DNA from: Enterococcus diestrammenae
GTDB taxonomy: Bacteria > Bacillota > Bacilli > Lactobacillales > Enterococcaceae
Length of the DNA stretch: 38,591 nucleotides
Direction: 5' to 3'
Assembly: GCF_009933255.1 (NCBI RefSeq)
Contig: NZ_MAEI01000024.1
Span: 1 to 38,591, forward strand
The notes beneath the pieces are model-generated. The model saw only the letters and a program-made list of their open reading frames with translations, had not been told where the DNA came from and ran no database searches. Shown one piece after another: positions 5,216 through 38,591 of this stretch. The position numbers and the translations under genes are program-made. Within the stretch, counting starts at the first letter, position 1. Each line of letters begins with the position of its first letter.

Positions 5216-5794
5216 TTGAATCTTCCTAATAAACTGACAGTGGTCAGAATTTGCATGATTCCCATCTTTATCCTGATTTTGGCATTGCCTTTGGATTGGG
5301 GTGTGGTGACTGCCGGGGATGTGACGCTGCCGGTTACCCATCTGGTAGCGGCGATCATCTTTGCAGTAGCTAGTATCACTGACTGGTTGGACGGCAAAAT
5401 TGCGCGTTCCCGCGGCTTAGTGACCAACTTTGGTAAATTTGCTGATCCATTGGCAGACAAGATGTTAGTCATGACGGCTTTTATCATGTTGGTAGAGCTT
5501 GGTAAAGCACCGGCCTGGGTGGTGGCAATCATCGTCTGCCGGGAGTTGGCAGTGACTGGGTTACGCTTATTGTTAGTAGAACACGGGGAAGTTATGGCAG
5601 CTGCATGGCCAGGGAAAGTCAAGACGGCGACCCAAATGGTAGCGATTATCCTATTGTTCATTAACAATATTCCGTTTGCGTTGATGGGCTTGCCATTGGA
5701 TCAAATCATGTTGTACGCTTGCTTGGTATTTACGATTTATTCCGGTGTAGATTACTTCGCGAAAAATACAGCTGTATTTAAAGGCTCAATGTAA
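5216..5794 (+). CDS. pgsA: CDP-diacylglycerol--glycerol-3-phosphate 3-phosphatidyltransferase
   Basis: Membrane enzyme making phosphatidylglycerophosphate, the committed step to phosphatidylglycerol, from CDP-diacylglycerol and glycerol 3-phosphate. 192 aa. The CDP-alcohol phosphotransferase signature is complete: D56, D59, G60, A63-R64, G73, D77 and D81. Several hydrophobic segments follow. The start is TTG at 5216 with GAGAGGT about 9 nt upstream. Its product is the substrate of MprF, encoded at 11837. It ends before a strong terminator at 5811. Confidence 0.95.
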   Translation: MNLPNKLTVVRICMIPIFILILALPLDWGVVTAGDVTLPVTHLVAAIIFAVASITDWLDGKIARSRGLVTNFGKFADPLADKMLVMTAFIMLVELGKAPAWVVAIIVCRELAVTGLRLLLVEHGEVMAAAWPGKVKTATQMVAIILLFINNIPFALMGLPLDQIMLYACLVFTIYSGVDYFAKNTAVFKGSM

Positions 5795-5810
5795 ACTTGA
5801 TAAGTTTGAG

Positions 5811-5849
5811 AAAGATCGTTGCGTGGTTGACATGTGACGGTCTTTTTTA
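5811..5849 (+). terminator. Terminator after pgsA
   Basis: AAAGATCGTTGCGTG pairs with CATGTGACGGTCTTT, including several G-U pairs, around a 5-nt loop, followed by TTTTTT. It closes the ymfF-pgsA transcription unit. Confidence 0.8.
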
Positions 5850-5942
5850 TAGGCGAAAGCCAGCTGAAACGAGCGGCTGCTAATTTGTTAATTATAAATA
5901 ACTCAGGCAAAGGGATTGTTAAATCTTAGGAAAGGTTCCCTG

Positions 5943-5951
5943 TGTTATACT
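5943..5951 (+). promoter_or_regulatory. Extended -10 promoter of cinA
   Basis: TGTTATACT matches the extended -10 form TGn-TATACT. No clear -35 is seen at 17 bp. It sits between the pgsA terminator and cinA and would give a leader of about 47 nt. Confidence 0.5.
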
Positions 5952-6005
5952 TTAGCTGCAGATTCAAAGATTGAAGCAGTACGTGGATAAGGAGCGAAAA
6001 AATAA

Positions 6006-7271
6006 ATGAAAGCTGAAATTATTGCCGTGGGAACGGAAATCTTACTGGGGCAAGTAATCAATAGCAATGCTACTTTTTTATCAGAAGAATTGGCGGATAT
6101 GGGTTTTGAAGTGTATCACCATAGCGTGGTAGGGGACAATCGCGAGCGCTTGCTAGAATTGTTGCAGGTAGCAGATAAACGCAGTGATTTGGTGGTGTTA
6201 TGTGGTGGGTTGGGACCGACTACTGATGATTTGACCAAAGATGTCGTGGCCGAATTTGTCGGACAAGACTTAGTAGAGGATAAGCCCGGCTTAGAGCAGT
6301 TACACGCCTTTTATAGAAAGGCCCAAAGAAGGATGACACCGAATAATCTACGGCAGGTATTAGTTTTTGCTGAGGGGCTAGCATTGCCGAATGAAACAGG
6401 GTTAGCAGTGGGAATTTTTTATCAGAAACCGGGGCAAACGGCGTATCTTCTTTTACCGGGGCCTCCAAGTGAGTTAAAGCCAATGTTTTTGCATCATGCT
6501 AAGGCACTATTGGCAGAAAAACTTCCTCATGAAGAAAAACTACTCTCCCGGGTCTTGCGCTTTTATGGTATCGGGGAGTCAAAATTGGTGACGGAATTGG
6601 CGGATTTGATTGATCAACAAACCAATCCTACCATCGCCCCTTACGCGAAACCCAATGAAGTAACAGTGCGACTGACGGTGAAGACCGCAAAAGAAGTGAC
6701 TGGCCAGGCGTTGTTAGATGCGACAGAAGCCCACATCATGGACCGGGTGGGGGAGTATTTTTACGGATATGGTGAGGAAAATACCCTGGAGAAGGTGGTG
6801 GTGGCTTTACTGAAAGACAAGCACAAAACAGTCACAGCAGCAGAGAGCCTGACTGCCGGGGAATTTCAAGGAACCATCGGCAATGTCCCTGGCGTATCGA
6901 CGGTTTTTCCAGGTGGCTTGGTGACTTACAGTGCCGAGACGAAAGCGAGCTTATTGGGAATCGATCCGGCCTATTTGGCGACCTATGGGACGGTCAGTCG
7001 AGAATGTGCTGAAGCGATGGCCGTCGCTAGTCGGGAAAAATTGGGAACTGACTATGGGTTGAGTTTCACGGGTGTGGCTGGTCCCGAAACATTAGAGGAA
7101 CAACCAGCTGGGACAGTTTGGATTGCTTTGGCATCGGCAAGCGGTGTTGAAAGCCGCTTGTACCACTTCACCCGTGATCGGGCATATGTGCGTCACAGTG
7201 CTGTGATGGCGGGATTAGACTTACTCCGACGGGAATTATTGGCAGAGGATAATTTTAGTGAGGAAAGCTAA
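6006..7271 (+). CDS. cinA: CinA-family protein (nicotinamide-nucleotide amidohydrolase family)
   Basis: 421 aa with both family domains. The N-terminal MoaB/MogA-like domain carries GGLGPTTDD at residues 67-75. The C-terminal PncC-like amidase domain (about 255-415) has the region [21 protein letters not shown]. CinA C-terminal domains deamidate nicotinamide mononucleotide in NAD salvage; the gene is often next to recA and was first tied to competence. The ATG at 6006 has AAGGAG 11 nt upstream. It has its own promoter and is separated from recA by a LexA box and a promoter. Confidence 0.95.
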
Positions 7272-7288
7272 AGGAAAATTAAACAATG

Positions 7289-7302
7289 CGAAAATATGTT
7301 CG
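7289..7302 (+). promoter_or_regulatory. LexA (DinR) SOS box upstream of recA
   Basis: CGAAAATATGTTCG matches the Gram-positive SOS consensus CGAACATATGTTCG at 13 of 14 positions. It lies 8 bp upstream of the recA -35 element, so recA should be repressed by LexA and induced by DNA damage. Confidence 0.85.
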
Positions 7303-7310
7303 CCTTTTTC

Positions 7311-7339
7311 TTGCCTTTTGATTTCTAAACAGGTATCAT
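7311..7339 (+). promoter_or_regulatory. recA promoter
   Basis: TTGCCT (7311-7316) and TATCAT (7334-7339) are separated by 17 bp. The LexA box just upstream supports this placement. The leader of about 90 nt contains an imperfect hairpin: TCAGAAGGCGA (7363-7373) against TCGTCCTTTCTGA (7379-7391). Confidence 0.6.
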
Positions 7340-7435
7340 AAAAAAGTACTGATGAATTAAACTCAGAAGGCGACTGGTTCGTCCTTTCTGATTTGAGATA
7401 GTTCACTTCTAGCATATTTTAAGGAGGATCATCAT

Positions 7436-8479
7436 TTGGCAGACGATCGTAAAGCAGCCTTAGATGCTGCGTTAAAAAAAATTGAAAAGAATTATGGTAA
7501 AGGCGCCGTAATGAAATTAGGGGAAAAGGTGGATCAACGAATTTCTACCATTCCTAGTGGTTCACTGGCATTGGACGTGGCCTTAGGTGTCGGTGGCTAC
7601 CCTCGTGGTCGGATCATAGAAGTTTATGGACCTGAAAGTTCTGGGAAAACCACGGTAGCCTTACACGCGATTGCTTCCGTTCAAAAAGAAGGGGGCACCG
7701 CTGCCTTTATCGATGCCGAGCATGCCTTGGACCCATTGTATGCCCAAAACCTTGGTGTCAACATCGATGAATTGTTGCTATCCCAACCAGATACAGGGGA
7801 ACAAGGCTTAGAAATTGCCGATGCCCTTGTCTCTAGTGGTGCAGTGGATATCGTCGTGATCGACTCCGTAGCGGCCTTAGTCCCTCGAGCCGAAATTGAT
7901 GGGGAGATGGGGGATGCCCACGTAGGTCTGCAAGCTCGCTTGATGTCTCAAGCTTTGCGGAAACTTTCTGGCTCCATCAATAAAACCAAGACGATTGCCG
8001 TCTTCATCAACCAAATCCGTGAAAAAGTCGGTATTATGTTTGGGAATCCTGAAACCACTCCTGGGGGGCGCGCATTGAAATTCTATGCGACGATTCGCTT
8101 GGAAGTTCGACGGGCGGAACAGTTAAAATCTGGTACGGATATTATCGGGAACCGTACCAAGATTAAAGTTGTCAAAAACAAAGTCGCACCACCATTTAAA
8201 GTGGCAGAAGTCGATATCATGTACGGTCGCGGGATTTCTCAAGAAGGCGAACTCTTGGATATGGCGGTGGAAAAAGATATCGTGGATAAGAGTGGTGCGT
8301 GGTATTCATACAATGGCGAACGTATCGGCCAAGGTCGGGACAATGCCAAGAATTATATTAAAGAACGTCCAGAGCTGAAAGAAGAACTCAACAAACTGGT
8401 ACGAGCAGCCTTTGATATCGGGGATGCCGTTCCCGTAGAAGAAGTTGCTGAAGAAGAATTACCTTTAGATGTGGAATAG
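7436..8479 (+). CDS. recA: Recombinase RecA
   Basis: 347-aa DNA-dependent ATPase that forms filaments on single-stranded DNA, performs strand exchange and triggers LexA self-cleavage. Walker [10 protein letters not shown] is at residues 65-73. The core is highly conserved throughout ([31 protein letters not shown]). The C-terminal tail is acidic, as usual. The start is TTG at 7436, with a near-perfect AAGGAGGATC site at 7421-7430. Transcribed alone: own promoter, SOS box and terminator. Confidence 0.98.
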
Positions 8480-8486
8480 CCAAAAC

Positions 8487-8527
8487 AAACTACCGGTTAG
8501 CTGATTTTCAGTGGCCGGTAGTTTTTT
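8487..8527 (+). terminator. recA terminator
   Basis: AAACTACCGG (8487-8496) pairs perfectly with CCGGTAGTTT (8515-8524), followed by a six-base T-run. Confidence 0.9.
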
Positions 8528-8827
8528 GTAAGCTTCTAGGCTCTTATAAGGGAGGGTCAGATAATATTTAAGAGGAATTCAGAAGAACGATGCGTGAGTT
8601 TTTATCGGTCTACTGATTATCCGAGGACTTTACTGAGAGCTATGAGAACTGATTTTTTTGTTTTTTTTTTGAAAGCAGTCAATGATAAATTCCGTTGGCA
8701 ATCTGTTGGCTAGTTTATGGGGCTTGCTTTTTACTGGGGAATAACGGGCGCTTTTCATTTTCAGCAAACTCTCTGAAATAACAGGATTTTACCGCTGTTT
8801 AGTCAAGGCTTTTCCACCTTTAAAAAG

Positions 8828-35224: not shown

Positions 35225-35329
35225 ATGGCGTATCAAAGAATTAATTTCATCCTAAACAAAATAGACAATCCATCAGGCAGGAGGAAACCAAATGGCGAAA
35301 AAGAGATTTCTAATGAAGGCAACATCTAA
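35225..35329 (+). CDS. Small ORF (34 aa) overlapping the start of the permuted serine hydrolase
   Basis: ATG 35225 has an excellent AGGAGGG site 7 nt upstream (35211-35217) and the frame runs 34 codons (starting MAYQRINFILNKIDNPSG) to TAA 35327-35329. It is hydrophilic and basic with no recognisable domain. It overlaps the first 38 nt of the next gene in a different frame, whose own AGGAGG lies inside it. This arrangement suggests a leader peptide or translational coupling. It may also be a remnant of an older gene start. Confidence 0.4.
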   Translation: MAYQRINFILNKIDNPSGRRKPNGEKEISNEGNI

Positions 35330-36227
35330 CCATGATAAAACTTGTTCTCATGATAGTGATTTGCAGAGGGTGACTCAGCCTGTTTCACTCTCTGTAACGA
35401 CTGATGAAGCAATCGCGTCTTTTGTGCAGGCAATGAATCAAAAATGCACCCTTTTAGGCCTGACGAACACCCGTTTTACGAATGCTCATGGACTGGCAAC
35501 AAGCGGCCAGTCGACTACGGCAGCTGATTTATCAAAACTATTTCTGCAAGTTTGTGGCATTTCGGAAATTCTACGAGTCTGGGGAGCGAAATCTTACACG
35601 GTTGGCATTGGTGGGCCCCATCAGCGTTCTGTAAAAGTCGTAACGACAGTGAAAAATCCCCAGCTAGAAAAAGAGTTTGTCATTTTGGGAGGTAAATCTG
35701 GCACGCTTGTACCAGATATCTATAGTGCGGCTGTGTTACTTGAAGATCAGGACAATCAAATTTTTGCGGTGATAGTCTTGCAGTCAAATTCCACAACGCA
35801 ACGCTATCTTGATGCAGCACTTTTAGTTAAAGCCGCAAAAAAAAGACAACTTGATCCCAACTATCAGCTGCCAGTAGAGCTCCAAGCAATCGCAGGAGAA
35901 GTAGTTCAGATTACGAATCAGCCATTATTTTGGACGCATCAGGTACCTAAAAAAATGTTGAGTTTAAATGAAAAGCAAAAAATCCGTCCTGCCTCTTTGA
36001 CAAAGTTAATGACGGTTCTTTTGTTGACAGAACATGTGTCTAATTTACATGAACGATTCACGATTCAAGAGACGGATTTGGTAGGTGGAAGTGGACCGCG
36101 ACTATGGCCCGGCGATACTATGAGTTATTGGGATGCTCTTTATTTGATGATGTTACCAAGTGCAAATAACGTCGCTCAAGCCATTTCACGGGTGATAGGA
36201 GAGAAAATCCAGCTTTATGGTACCTGA
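35292..36227 (+). CDS. Serine hydrolase of the D-Ala-D-Ala carboxypeptidase (S11) fold, circularly permuted
   Basis: 311 aa. All landmarks of a penicillin-recognising S11 peptidase are present but in rotated order. The normally C-terminal part comes first: FVQAMNQKCTLLGL (44-57), TNAHGL (63-68), then the KTG-type motif GGKSGT (K135-S136-G137). A linker at about 175-215 follows. The normally N-terminal part comes last: PASLTK with nucleophile S235 and K238, then PSANN with S290-A-N292, ending 19 residues later. A normal protein runs SxxK, SxN, KTG. No signal peptide is visible, although relatives work outside the membrane. AGGAGG precedes ATG 35292, an in-frame stop at 35262 blocks any longer start, and a terminator follows. 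It may be a true permuted enzyme, or the junction fragment of a tandem duplication. Confidence 0.75.
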   Translation: MAKKRFLMKATSNHDKTCSHDSDLQRVTQPVSLSVTTDEAIASFVQAMNQKCTLLGLTNTRFTNAHGLATSGQSTTAADLSKLFLQVCGISEILRVWGAKSYTVGIGGPHQRSVKVVTTVKNPQLEKEFVILGGKSGTLVPDIYSAAVLLEDQDNQIFAVIVLQSNSTTQRYLDAALLVKAAKKRQLDPNYQLPVELQAIAGEVVQITNQPLFWTHQVPKKMLSLNEKQKIRPASLTKLMTVLLLTEHVSNLHERFTIQETDLVGGSGPRLWPGDTMSYWDALYLMMLPSANNVAQAISRVIGEKIQLYGT

Positions 36228-36252
36228 TTTGTCTGAATAGAATCCGCAGGGG

Positions 36253-36287
36253 AAACTGTCTATCTTTTTTGATAGATGGTTTTTTTA
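36253..36287 (+). terminator. Terminator after the permuted serine hydrolase gene
   Basis: AACTGTCTATC pairs with GATAGATGGTT (two G-T pairs) around TTTTTT, followed by a T-run. Confidence 0.75.
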
Positions 36288-36289
36288 GT

Positions 36290-37164
36290 GTTGATTTGAT
36301 AATGCGATATCTGGCGTAGAACACAGTCACATAGGAATTAGGGCAGCACGAAATTGCCATGATTAAGGAAGGGCTAACAAAGCGTTAACTTTTTGAAAGG
36401 GATTGAAGCCGCTGCTTGCCAAAATAGGAGAAGTAGTAATTGACGGGAAATATGTAGAGAAATTTGAAGTTAATTTATATTTTTAAAAATTGGTATAGTT
36501 AAAAATCGGGAGCTTCGTTTAAAAATACACTAATTAAAGAGAAATGATAGGAGACATTTTATTCCGATATAAAGTTATATAATAATTTGGTGCTCCAACG
36601 AATATTTTTTCGATAAACTGAGAATTCTTTCTTTTTTGATGAATAAGAAAAACAAGAGAATGGTAACATCATTCTATTGATTTTTAATTGAAATCGCCTT
36701 TGTTTAGCTATTTATTAAAATTTAATTTACTTAAAAATGCCATGCTTTTCTCTATTTATTATTTCAGATATTTCATGATTCAAGAGGAATGATAGAATGG
36801 AATTAGTAACGAAATAGGCAAAAAAAACTAATTATTTCTGATGAGTTTATTTTCAATTCGTTATTTTTGTCTGTTTTGTTATTTAAGAATGGCTAGTTTT
36901 TGATGTTTTTCTACTAATTGGTACAGTTTTTGTCTTGAGGTGGAGAAAGGGGTTGGTAACCGGTAGTGACAACTTTTCACTTAAGGGAGAACAGAGGGGA
37001 CTTGCGACAACACTACGGGAATCATTAACTAAGTAAAGGACATCGTAGTATTTAGCAAAATCTACAAGAGAGCAGCCGTTTTTCGTTTTTTAGCCCTTAT
37101 AGTGGAAACGTCCTGAATAGGAAAAGTTGCTATGTAGTGAAAGATGTTCAAAAGGAGGAAGGAA
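36290..37164. other. AT-rich region without a convincing gene
   Basis: About 870 bp with very low GC, especially 36470-36900. I find no ORF of useful length with a ribosome site, only peptides of fewer than 15 codons. TGGTATAGT at 36491-36499 fits an extended -10 and may start a transcript, but nothing identifiable follows. The last 200 bp are the presumed promoter and leader region of the surface protein gene; I could not single out a promoter there. Confidence 0.5.
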
Positions 37165-38591
37165 ATGAAAAGAAAAGATTATAAGAAGTTGTTGGCCGCC
37201 AAAAGAAGAAAACAACAAGTGGCCAAAATGGCGATCTTGGGGATGTTCGCTACCGGTGTCAGTGGCGTCGGATTAACCTCTCCGAAACTACTGAATGCAT
37301 TTGCAGCCGAGGTTGAAGTCGGAGCGCGAGCAGAAGTGACGGGTATGATCACTTATGTGGATGCATCCGGTCAGACAAAGACGATACCTGTGAAAAATAG
37401 TGGAGTAGTCACACTGTCCTCTACTTCTTCAAAACTAACGGTAAGTGTTGGTGGCGAAAAATATGTCTTAGAGGATATTACCTCACTTAATTTAGATAAT
37501 GTCTATCTTGCAAACGGGTCAGAAATTCGAGTGAATGCATTAACATCGATTACAGGTAAGAATATTACTGCAAATGGGACATTCGAGATTGATAGTTGTG
37601 CTAATTTATCAAATCTTGCTTTTAGCAATTCCACGTTTAAGGGCAAATTAACCATTGAAGATAATAAGTCTTTAAATGAAGGGACAGCAACGAATTGTAC
37701 ATTTAACGATGATGTTAAATACTATGCCAATGCTAGTTCTAGTTCTGGCGGAAGTCAGATGTTTTACAACAACTGTAAGTTCACGATTCCTGTGGATGAT
37801 AAGGAAATCTATCTTAATCATGGTTCAAGTGGGACACGTACAACCGCATGGTTTGCCGTAGATGGTGAGGTAATGGGAGTTGTACCTGGACAAGGGTATA
37901 ACGCTACACAAACCGGTAAAATTACGGTCGGTACGAAAGAATATATAGTGCCAGCAGGTGCAAAAGTTGAAATTGAAATGAGTAAAGGTGCTACTGAAAT
38001 TAAGTGGAAAAATGGAGAACCAATCAACATCAAAAAAAATGAAACAACGGACCTATCTTTTTACAATATTAATTTAGATGAAGTTGATATGAAGCATACA
38101 GATTCTTCAATCAAGTCTTTGATAATAGAGAGCTGTTACGTTGACAGAACGGCTTATATTGAAAATATGAGTAGGTTGGAGAGTATTACTATTAGTAATA
38201 CTGATTTTGATAACAATTTACACATCAAAGATTTACCTAATTTGGAAACAGTTAAGTTGGATCATAATGAAATATCGAATGATACAAAACTTCATGATTT
38301 GGACGCTTTAAAAACAGTTGAGTTTCTTAACACGAAATTTAACGATGATATTGAAGTTTTACGAGTGAAATCAGGTGCCGAGGTTCAGATTAAAAATTCT
38401 TATCTTCAGGATTATTTGAAATCAACAGCAAATATTGTTACGGGAACTGGGGATCCGGATGAAACGGACTCCGATGCGGATTCCGATGCGGATGCAGATT
38501 CCGATGCTGACGCCGACTCAGATGCTGATGCCGATGCTGACTCAGATGCTGATGCTGATGCGGATGCTGATGCTGATGCGGATGCCGACGC
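37165..38591 (+). CDS. Secreted surface protein, beta-solenoid-like repeats plus Asp-Ala/Asp-Ser stalk (partial, 3' end outside window)
   Basis: 475 codons are visible, open to the window edge with no stop. ATG 37165 has GGAGG 6 nt upstream. The N-terminus is a long signal peptide: basic region 1-21, hydrophobic 22-38, likely cleavage after AFA near residue 47. Two similar modules follow (about 50-240 and 245-430). Each starts with a beta-rich part containing GxITV/YV and continues with Asn/Leu-rich strands of about 20 residues (LTSITGKNITANGTFEID..., LPNLETVKLDHNEISN...), suggesting a beta-solenoid or leucine-rich-repeat adhesive domain. From residue 435 the sequence is pure D-A/D-S repeats, a wall-spanning stalk as in Sdr-type adhesins. 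A sortase LPxTG anchor is expected beyond the window but not seen. Confidence 0.82.
   Translation, partial: MKRKDYKKLLAAKRRKQQVAKMAILGMFATGVSGVGLTSPKLLNAFAAEVEVGARAEVTGMITYVDASGQTKTIPVKNSGVVTLSSTSSKLTVSVGGEKYVLEDITSLNLDNVYLANGSEIRVNALTSITGKNITANGTFEIDSCANLSNLAFSNSTFKGKLTIEDNKSLNEGTATNCTFNDDVKYYANASSSSGGSQMFYNNCKFTIPVDDKEIYLNHGSSGTRTTAWFAVDGEVMGVVPGQGYNATQTGKITVGTKEYIVPAGAKVEIEMSKGATEIKWKNGEPINIKKNETTDLSFYNINLDEVDMKHTDSSIKSLIIESCYVDRTAYIENMSRLESITISNTDFDNNLHIKDLPNLETVKLDHNEISNDTKLHDLDALKTVEFLNTKFNDDIEVLRVKSGAEVQIKNSYLQDYLKSTANIVTGTGDPDETDSDADSDADADSDADADSDADADADSDADADADADADADAD
38467..38591 (+). repeat. GAY-GCN/GAY-TCN hexanucleotide repeat encoding the (D-A/S)n stalk
   Basis: Continuous in-frame array of Asp codons alternating with Ala or Ser codons, running off the window end. 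The third positions vary, so the DNA repeat is imperfect although the protein repeat is nearly exact. Confidence 0.9.

Follow-up and report, generated by a model that had tools for sequence, protein, structure and literature searches.

The window analysed here, the complete 38,591-nucleotide contig NZ_MAEI01000024.1 of Enterococcus diestrammenae (assembly GCF_009933255.1), carries at positions 35292..36227 a gene for a 311-amino-acid serine hydrolase related to the S11 family of DD-peptidases (PF00768). The two halves of its domain stand in swapped order, and we are almost certain that an S11 DD-peptidase domain has here undergone circular permutation in nature, with its fold kept. The gene and its parts, all on the forward strand, are the following:

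35292..36227 (+): circularly permuted S11-type serine hydrolase, 311 amino acids, intact open reading frame (ORF)
35280..35284 (+): ribosome-binding site GGAGG, read from the sequence, 7 bases before the ATG
35397..35831 (+): N-half (residues 36-180), equivalent to the second half of an ordinary S11 domain, by half-domain hidden Markov model (HMM) and K15 structural alignment
35694..35702 (+): KSG motif, residues 135-137 (K135-S136-G137), read from the sequence
35889..36209 (+): C-half (residues 200-306), equivalent to the first half of an ordinary S11 domain, by half-domain HMM
35994..36005 (+): SLTK motif, residues 235-238, with the predicted nucleophile S235 and K238, read from the sequence
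36159..36167 (+): SAN motif, residues 290-292 (S290-A-N292), read from the sequence
36249..36286 (+): weak terminator-like hairpin with T run (2 such sites in the region against 1.3 expected by chance)

Swapped halves of a single domain

In the window protein the motifs follow each other as KSG, SLTK and SAN, whereas the ordinary S11 order is SxxK, SxN and KTG. An earlier note, made from the sequence alone, had described a complete S11 motif set with KSG ahead of the other two motifs, and its residue positions agree with ours. PF00768 matched the protein with 67.2 bits (gathering score 27.6), summed over two out-of-order stretches, the better of which aligns residues 42-85 with profile positions 120-163. 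Of the related serine-hydrolase profile PF13354, the early part (12-99) falls at residues 222-303, and no match to PF07943 was found in Pfam. Alignment to B. subtilis DacB (3mfd) paired residues 224-304 with DacB 25-105 and residues 42-103 with DacB 108-170. These two DacB segments are separated by 2 residues, and therefore the break lies between the SxN helix and the FVQAMN helix, where the earlier note had put it. Pfam, the DacB alignment and the half-domain HMMs all find both complementary S11 segments in one ORF, in swapped order.

AlphaFold predicted one compact domain, with a predicted template modelling score (pTM) of 0.85 for the window protein and 0.92 for a phage member of the family; residues 1-31 of the window model have a predicted local distance difference test score (pLDDT) below 50. 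Residues 35-185 superpose on residues 112-262 of the K15 DD-transpeptidase at 2.1 Å over 147 residues, and the permuted models align through their C-half with the permuted PC1 beta-lactamase 1ALQ and with RG13. These alignments, which carry the structural case, come from VIA-align rows, in which candidates proposed by Foldseek are aligned anew. Foldseek gave no match in the PDB at E ≤ 0.001 for the window or the phage model, as is expected because only half of the chain can align in order. The viral structure library yielded a single match at E ≤ 0.001, to a phage protein resembling DacC, with 158 columns aligned of the 311.

The intact ORF and its ribosome-binding site are as the earlier note had them, and the terminator it proposed is the weak one listed above. 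A 34-amino-acid ORF (MAYQRINFILNKIDN..., window 35225-35329, forward strand) with its own GAGGAGG site overlaps, in a different frame, the beginning of the permuted gene; the start of this small ORF presumably resembles phage structural proteins. Rfam and tRNA scans of the window found nothing.

Spread of the permuted family and its probable origin in phage tails

The order of the halves was read with one HMM per half, built from the first permuted alignment and later from the domain alignment. Among 268 protein entries, 208 had the ordinary order (C-half then N-half), 58 were permuted (the window protein included), one read N-C-N and one showed the N-half only; since the database sets were the best 120 matches of larger sets (one was complete, with 47 passing), these counts are not natural frequencies. 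SxxK, SxN and KTG/KSG are present in nearly all 58 permuted entries. The exceptions are P0009, with SSS for SxN, and P0149, which lacks SxN and has a C-half cut short; in P0011, a partial entry of 192 amino acids, automatic reading misplaced SxxK and missed K[ST]G, although SLTK and KTG are both in the sequence. S235, K238, S290 and K135 are invariant across a 29-row alignment. In a cluster of 29 members with 98% identity, the representative differs at 6 of 311 residues, none of them at positions invariant in that alignment. A subfamily (P0245-P0250, P0252 and L129, the last at 5389-7317 of its locus) carries 165-220 residues between the halves, at the old chain ends. Gut metagenome-assembled genomes (MAGs) contain two open frames of 4,000-4,900 residues (L018 1702-13773, L022 2-14809) in which a permuted S11 domain stands among GDSL/SASA esterase domains.

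Of three matching phage records, two were from Staphylococcus phages and matched over a long stretch; one of these two, phage ZCSS1, has the permuted order, and the third record (L005) has the ordinary one. In IMG/VR, 5 of 6 loci of a first scan were permuted (L006-L010), and a later scan with an ordinary-order query gave 45 loci, one of them permuted (L129). A genome scan gave 51 loci, of which 12 were permuted (L012-L023), 36 ordinary and 3 N-half only; the permuted ones came from Enterococcus pallens, Floricoccus, Vagococcus, Bacillus, staphylococci and gut MAGs. Eight plasmid records matched, and the three staphylococcal ones that were checked are all permuted. Within the window's genus the permuted gene occurs in 1 of 10 genomes, that of the window. 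With ordinary-order matches removed, 3 of 395 genomes sampled from the order and 2 of 398 from the class had a permuted copy; in the phylum sample, at E ≤ 1e-40, 1 of 398 did, the window genome itself, with no further permuted copy. In the genus Staphylococcus, 6 of 84 genomes had permuted copies. Natural circular permutation of the penicillin-binding fold is real and widespread at low frequency: the order recurs in dozens of sequences from separate sources, forms a well-predicted single domain and has ordinary-order relatives that can be named.

These data also bear on two doubts raised by the earlier note, that the gene is a leftover fragment or that the assembly is wrong at its ends. A decaying relic of a tail gene or two-domain gene, alone on the chromosome, would account for the lack of an N-terminal tail domain in the window protein, the pLDDT below 50 of residues 1-31, the overlapping 34-amino-acid ORF upstream and the presence of the gene in a single genome of the genus. 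However, short stand-alone permuted forms recur (P0003-P0007 with 292-295 amino acids, P0122, P0126), the 98% identical cluster changes at positions other than the invariant ones, the motifs are kept throughout a conserved family and the structure model is confident, so that we regard a relic as highly improbable. An assembly or annotation artefact could be suspected because the contig ends in repeats 2.4 kb downstream of the gene. It is refuted by independent records that agree on the permuted order, namely those of phage ZCSS1, of plasmids, of IMG/VR contigs and of genomes in GTDB, and its probability is close to nil.

In two viral loci (L008, L010) the permuted gene lies between the genes for Dit and Tal, after the tape measure gene; in L015 the tape measure was tested and the remaining tail module was assigned by sequence order. 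The tail-borne permuted domain is C-terminal, behind approximately 180-575 residues of other sequence. The window copy lies outside any tail module, between zinc-type ABC-transporter genes, which we take to be adcA, adcC and adcB, and a surface protein gene. Both the tail setting and the host neighbours described below lie beyond what the reader behind the earlier note could see.

To place the permuted sequences, a tree was calculated from 54 permuted and 54 chosen ordinary sequences with re-ordered halves (253 columns), leaving out identical permuted sequences, those with a short half and permuted entries collected later. All 54 permuted sequences fell into one group (ultrafast bootstrap, UFBoot, 88), which also takes in, on a long branch, L011, a phage sequence in ordinary order; a re-rooted drawing of the UFBoot tree shows 94 at the node of the permuted sequences plus L011. 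FastTree grouped the 54 permuted sequences without L011 (support 0.81, or 0.92 with L011 left out), the C-half alone gave the same grouping (0.82) and the N-half alone grouped 43 of the 54. L011 itself (6162-8669) is an 836-amino-acid ordinary-order frame on a viral contig; its position inside the permuted clade, seen in one tree only, is a reversion or an artefact. The nearest ordinary-order sequences include L125, with baseplate and tail-fibre families as neighbours, and the viral contigs L126 and L127. Further out lies an ordinary-order S11 domain in the tail module of the Erythrobacter phages R6L and ZS04; gp77 of R6L is tabulated as a D-alanyl-D-alanine carboxypeptidase in the paper on that phage (PMC5463345). 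Given the tree placement and these tail-module relatives, one origin among phage-tail S11 domains is the best reading. A single permutation in phage tails is rather likely, and it would have occurred in an S11 lineage borne on tail proteins. No clean two-domain tandem parent, the usual intermediate invoked by the earlier note, was found among the collected proteins. The sole hint is P0135 (298 amino acids, from a 1145-base contig), with a partial N-half, a C-half and an N-half, which could be a tandem intermediate or a second permutation point.

Host forms and their MurF-like neighbours

By hydropathy, the window protein has no hydrophobic N-terminal segment, as the earlier note had observed, and this is a trait of the family: such a segment was found by simple hydropathy in 2 of 58 permuted proteins as against 150 of 185 in ordinary order, and in none of 12 ordinary-order sisters. 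The 56 permuted entries without it include tail proteins. As the 12 sisters also lack this segment, its loss predates the permutation. Judged from sequence features, the host form would be located in the cytoplasm.

Downstream of the permuted gene the window enters a serine-aspartate (SD) repeat surface protein whose other end we place on contig C47 of the same genome:

Window 37144..38591 (+): first part of a surface protein with S-D-A repeats, cut off by the end of the contig, read from the sequence
Contig C47, L189 5389-5712 (-): end of a surface protein with LPQTG signal, read from the sequence
Contig C47, L189 1743-5231 (-): 1162-amino-acid protein with a MurF-like C-terminus, profile match 200.8 bits

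The window contig ends within the repeats. C47 (5.7 kb) holds an SD-type repeat, the LPQTG protein end, the 1162-amino-acid MurF-like gene, a 93-amino-acid gene and purR, and we infer that it adjoins the window contig. Its MurF-like gene (200.8 bits) is the second of the genome, the true murF (381.6 bits) being on contig C1. The 780-amino-acid N-terminal part of the C47 protein had no match in Pfam and no solved structure detectable by sequence at E ≤ 1. Two other genomes of the genus (G004, G001) have an unbroken series of adcB, SD-repeat surface protein, MurF-like gene (1084 and 1102 amino acids, respectively) and purR, without the permuted gene, and the remaining seven have purR next after adcB. 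The place of the cassette is therefore between adcB and purR, and in the window's species it has gained the permuted gene. No near match to the DNA between adcB and the surface protein was found among plasmids.

Similar company is kept elsewhere. E. pallens (G023) has four permuted copies in clusters with Mur-ligase, PGA_cap, NTP-transferase and D-Ala-D-Ala ligase genes. Two of these clusters (L107, L108) also hold an APH-like protein, and one Mur-ligase protein there has a weakly S11-like N-terminus; a 749-amino-acid Mur-ligase protein of E. pallens matches PF00768 at 52-186 (E 0.01, below the cut-off). In a rumen Bacteroidales MAG a Mur ligase gene is directly followed by the permuted gene, and on S. 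saprophyticus and S. haemolyticus plasmids a 'serine hydrolase' adjoins a 'Mur ligase family protein'. The S. haemolyticus plasmid also carries pls and an annotated glycosyltransferase that no NCBIfam family matched, and the glycosyltransferase adjoining the G028 copy is SdgB-like (375 bits, cut-off 800). For all six neighbour ligases compared with NCBIfam the best family was murF, at 88-219 bits and under the cut-off of 288.6.

A MurF-like ORF was found at 9 of 14 host-type loci (the window being counted via C47), at none of 12 loci of the phage type and at 1 of 38 controls, which comprised 36 ordinary-order loci and 2 cut loci showing the N-half only; the single positive control (L058, 43 bits) is one of the latter two. 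Not counted in these sets are L018 and L022, because of their giant ORFs, the partial locus L031 and any shorter duplicate of a locus already included. Two staphylococcal loci added later had no MurF-like ORF, giving 9 of 16 (Fisher 2e-5 against the controls, a guide only, as the loci are related, three positives come from one genome and the HMM was built from positives). MurF-like neighbours occur at 2 of 3 staphylococcal plasmid loci and at 1 of 7 staphylococcal-genome copies (L019, L020, L021, L110, L111, L198, L199), namely L021 of S. borealis. The lone staphylococcal copies, together with the relatives that have the cassette without the permuted gene, speak against a fixed partnership and leave the link to the MurF-like ligase and the surface protein loose. 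Two frames in lone staphylococcal loci, L111 7487-8416 (-) and L199 7839-8660 (-), encode proteins with similar starts (ESY.xRTVN...) and stand divergent from the permuted genes there.

Proposed role and relation to known systems

In the permuted protein the old S11 chain ends would be joined via residues ~180-200, and the new ends would lie in the loop between the SxN and FVQAMN helices. S235 would act as the acyl-enzyme nucleophile and K238 as the base, with S290, N292 and K135 completing the pocket, and the enzyme would be expected, as an S11 relative, to cleave or transfer at D-Ala-D-Ala-like ends. The protein is probably an active serine enzyme.

Tail fibres commonly bind, and the permuted fold could instead be a non-catalytic module that grips D-Ala-D-Ala or a nascent peptide, for tail anchoring or substrate presentation. 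The S11-like stretch in the 749-amino-acid E. pallens protein, a module in the same clusters, points this way. However, the catalytic motifs are kept in nearly all 58 entries and the four key residues are invariant in the alignment, and we consider a binding module unlikely. The plasmid copies (L173-L175) bear the GO label 'beta-lactam antibiotic catabolic process' and the window protein matches PF13354, as would suit a cytoplasmic or released beta-lactamase-like enzyme; we hold this to be very unlikely.

For an active enzyme, members at the C-terminus of tail-tip proteins may shorten the stem peptides of the wall, or hold on to them, as the phage enters, and other members would have become host genes without export signals that act in the cytoplasm. 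In the window's species the permuted gene would have joined a pre-existing cassette of SD-repeat surface protein and MurF-like ligase. There the MurF-like enzyme might attach a D-Ala-D-Ala-type peptide to the surface protein or its glycan, and the permuted enzyme might edit this peptide or transfer it in a transpeptidation: the neighbouring ligases of that chemistry suggest such a substrate, and the surface protein, as the third partner, suggests that it or its glycan is the target. We propose this role only tentatively. More doubtful still is a private D-Ala-D-Ala pathway in the cytoplasm, in which the MurF-like ligase, the permuted enzyme and, in E. pallens, the D-Ala-D-Ala ligase would together place peptides onto SD-repeat surface proteins or their glycans before export. 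Permutation, tail origin and host cassette taken together make a reasonably probable best explanation.

The related beta-lactamase fold has been permuted in the laboratory (1ALQ); the present case would be a natural one, and it concerns DD-peptidases, the family targeted by penicillins. Since relatives in ordinary order are available, the way in which the permutation arose, and the reason for it, can be tested. The case also points to phage tails bearing DD-peptidase domains. The combination of MurF-like ligase, SD-repeat surface protein and permuted hydrolase recurs on an enterococcal-family chromosome, in S. borealis and on a staphylococcal plasmid. If true, the private pathway would amount to a protein modification not yet on record, for which duplicated wall enzymes were combined with a permuted transpeptidase of phage-tail descent. 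The permuted family is apparently undescribed: the available portions of the open-licence literature, a body that leaves preprints and most subscription journals outside, do not describe the penicillin-binding fold in a naturally permuted form. They likewise contain no description of MurF-like genes beside SD-repeat proteins or of a system that unites MurF or Ddl relatives, SdgA/SdgB relatives and a permuted hydrolase, PMC10581047, which has the words MurF and serine-aspartate repeat, being outside that scope. The permuted NlpC/P60 and Lipocone domains described in the available parts of the literature are other folds.

Among known systems, the S11 family (PF00768; DacA/PBP5, DacB, K15) shares SxxK, SxN and KTG/KSG with the window protein, which scores above the gathering threshold and superposes through its N-half. 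In contrast to ordinary S11 members, the window protein has swapped halves, no signal peptide and no PF07943 match. It also matches PHROG 5304, a 'peptidase' family, at 58 bits, and the same superfamily occurs in tail modules, e.g., as R6L gp77; unlike the window protein, the tail-borne S11 domains of L125, L171 and L172 keep the ordinary order. 1ALQ (PC1 beta-lactamase) and RG13 (a TEM-1 fusion, of which the TEM-1 part is presumably permuted) have a related fold and are laboratory-made class A beta-lactamases. Relatives of MurF and Ddl, which serve D-Ala-D-Ala ligation, and of SdgA and SdgB, which glycosylate SD repeats, adjoin the host-type permuted genes; unlike MurF itself, the MurF-like neighbours stay under the murF cut-off (88-219 versus 288.6 bits) and some are fused to other domains.
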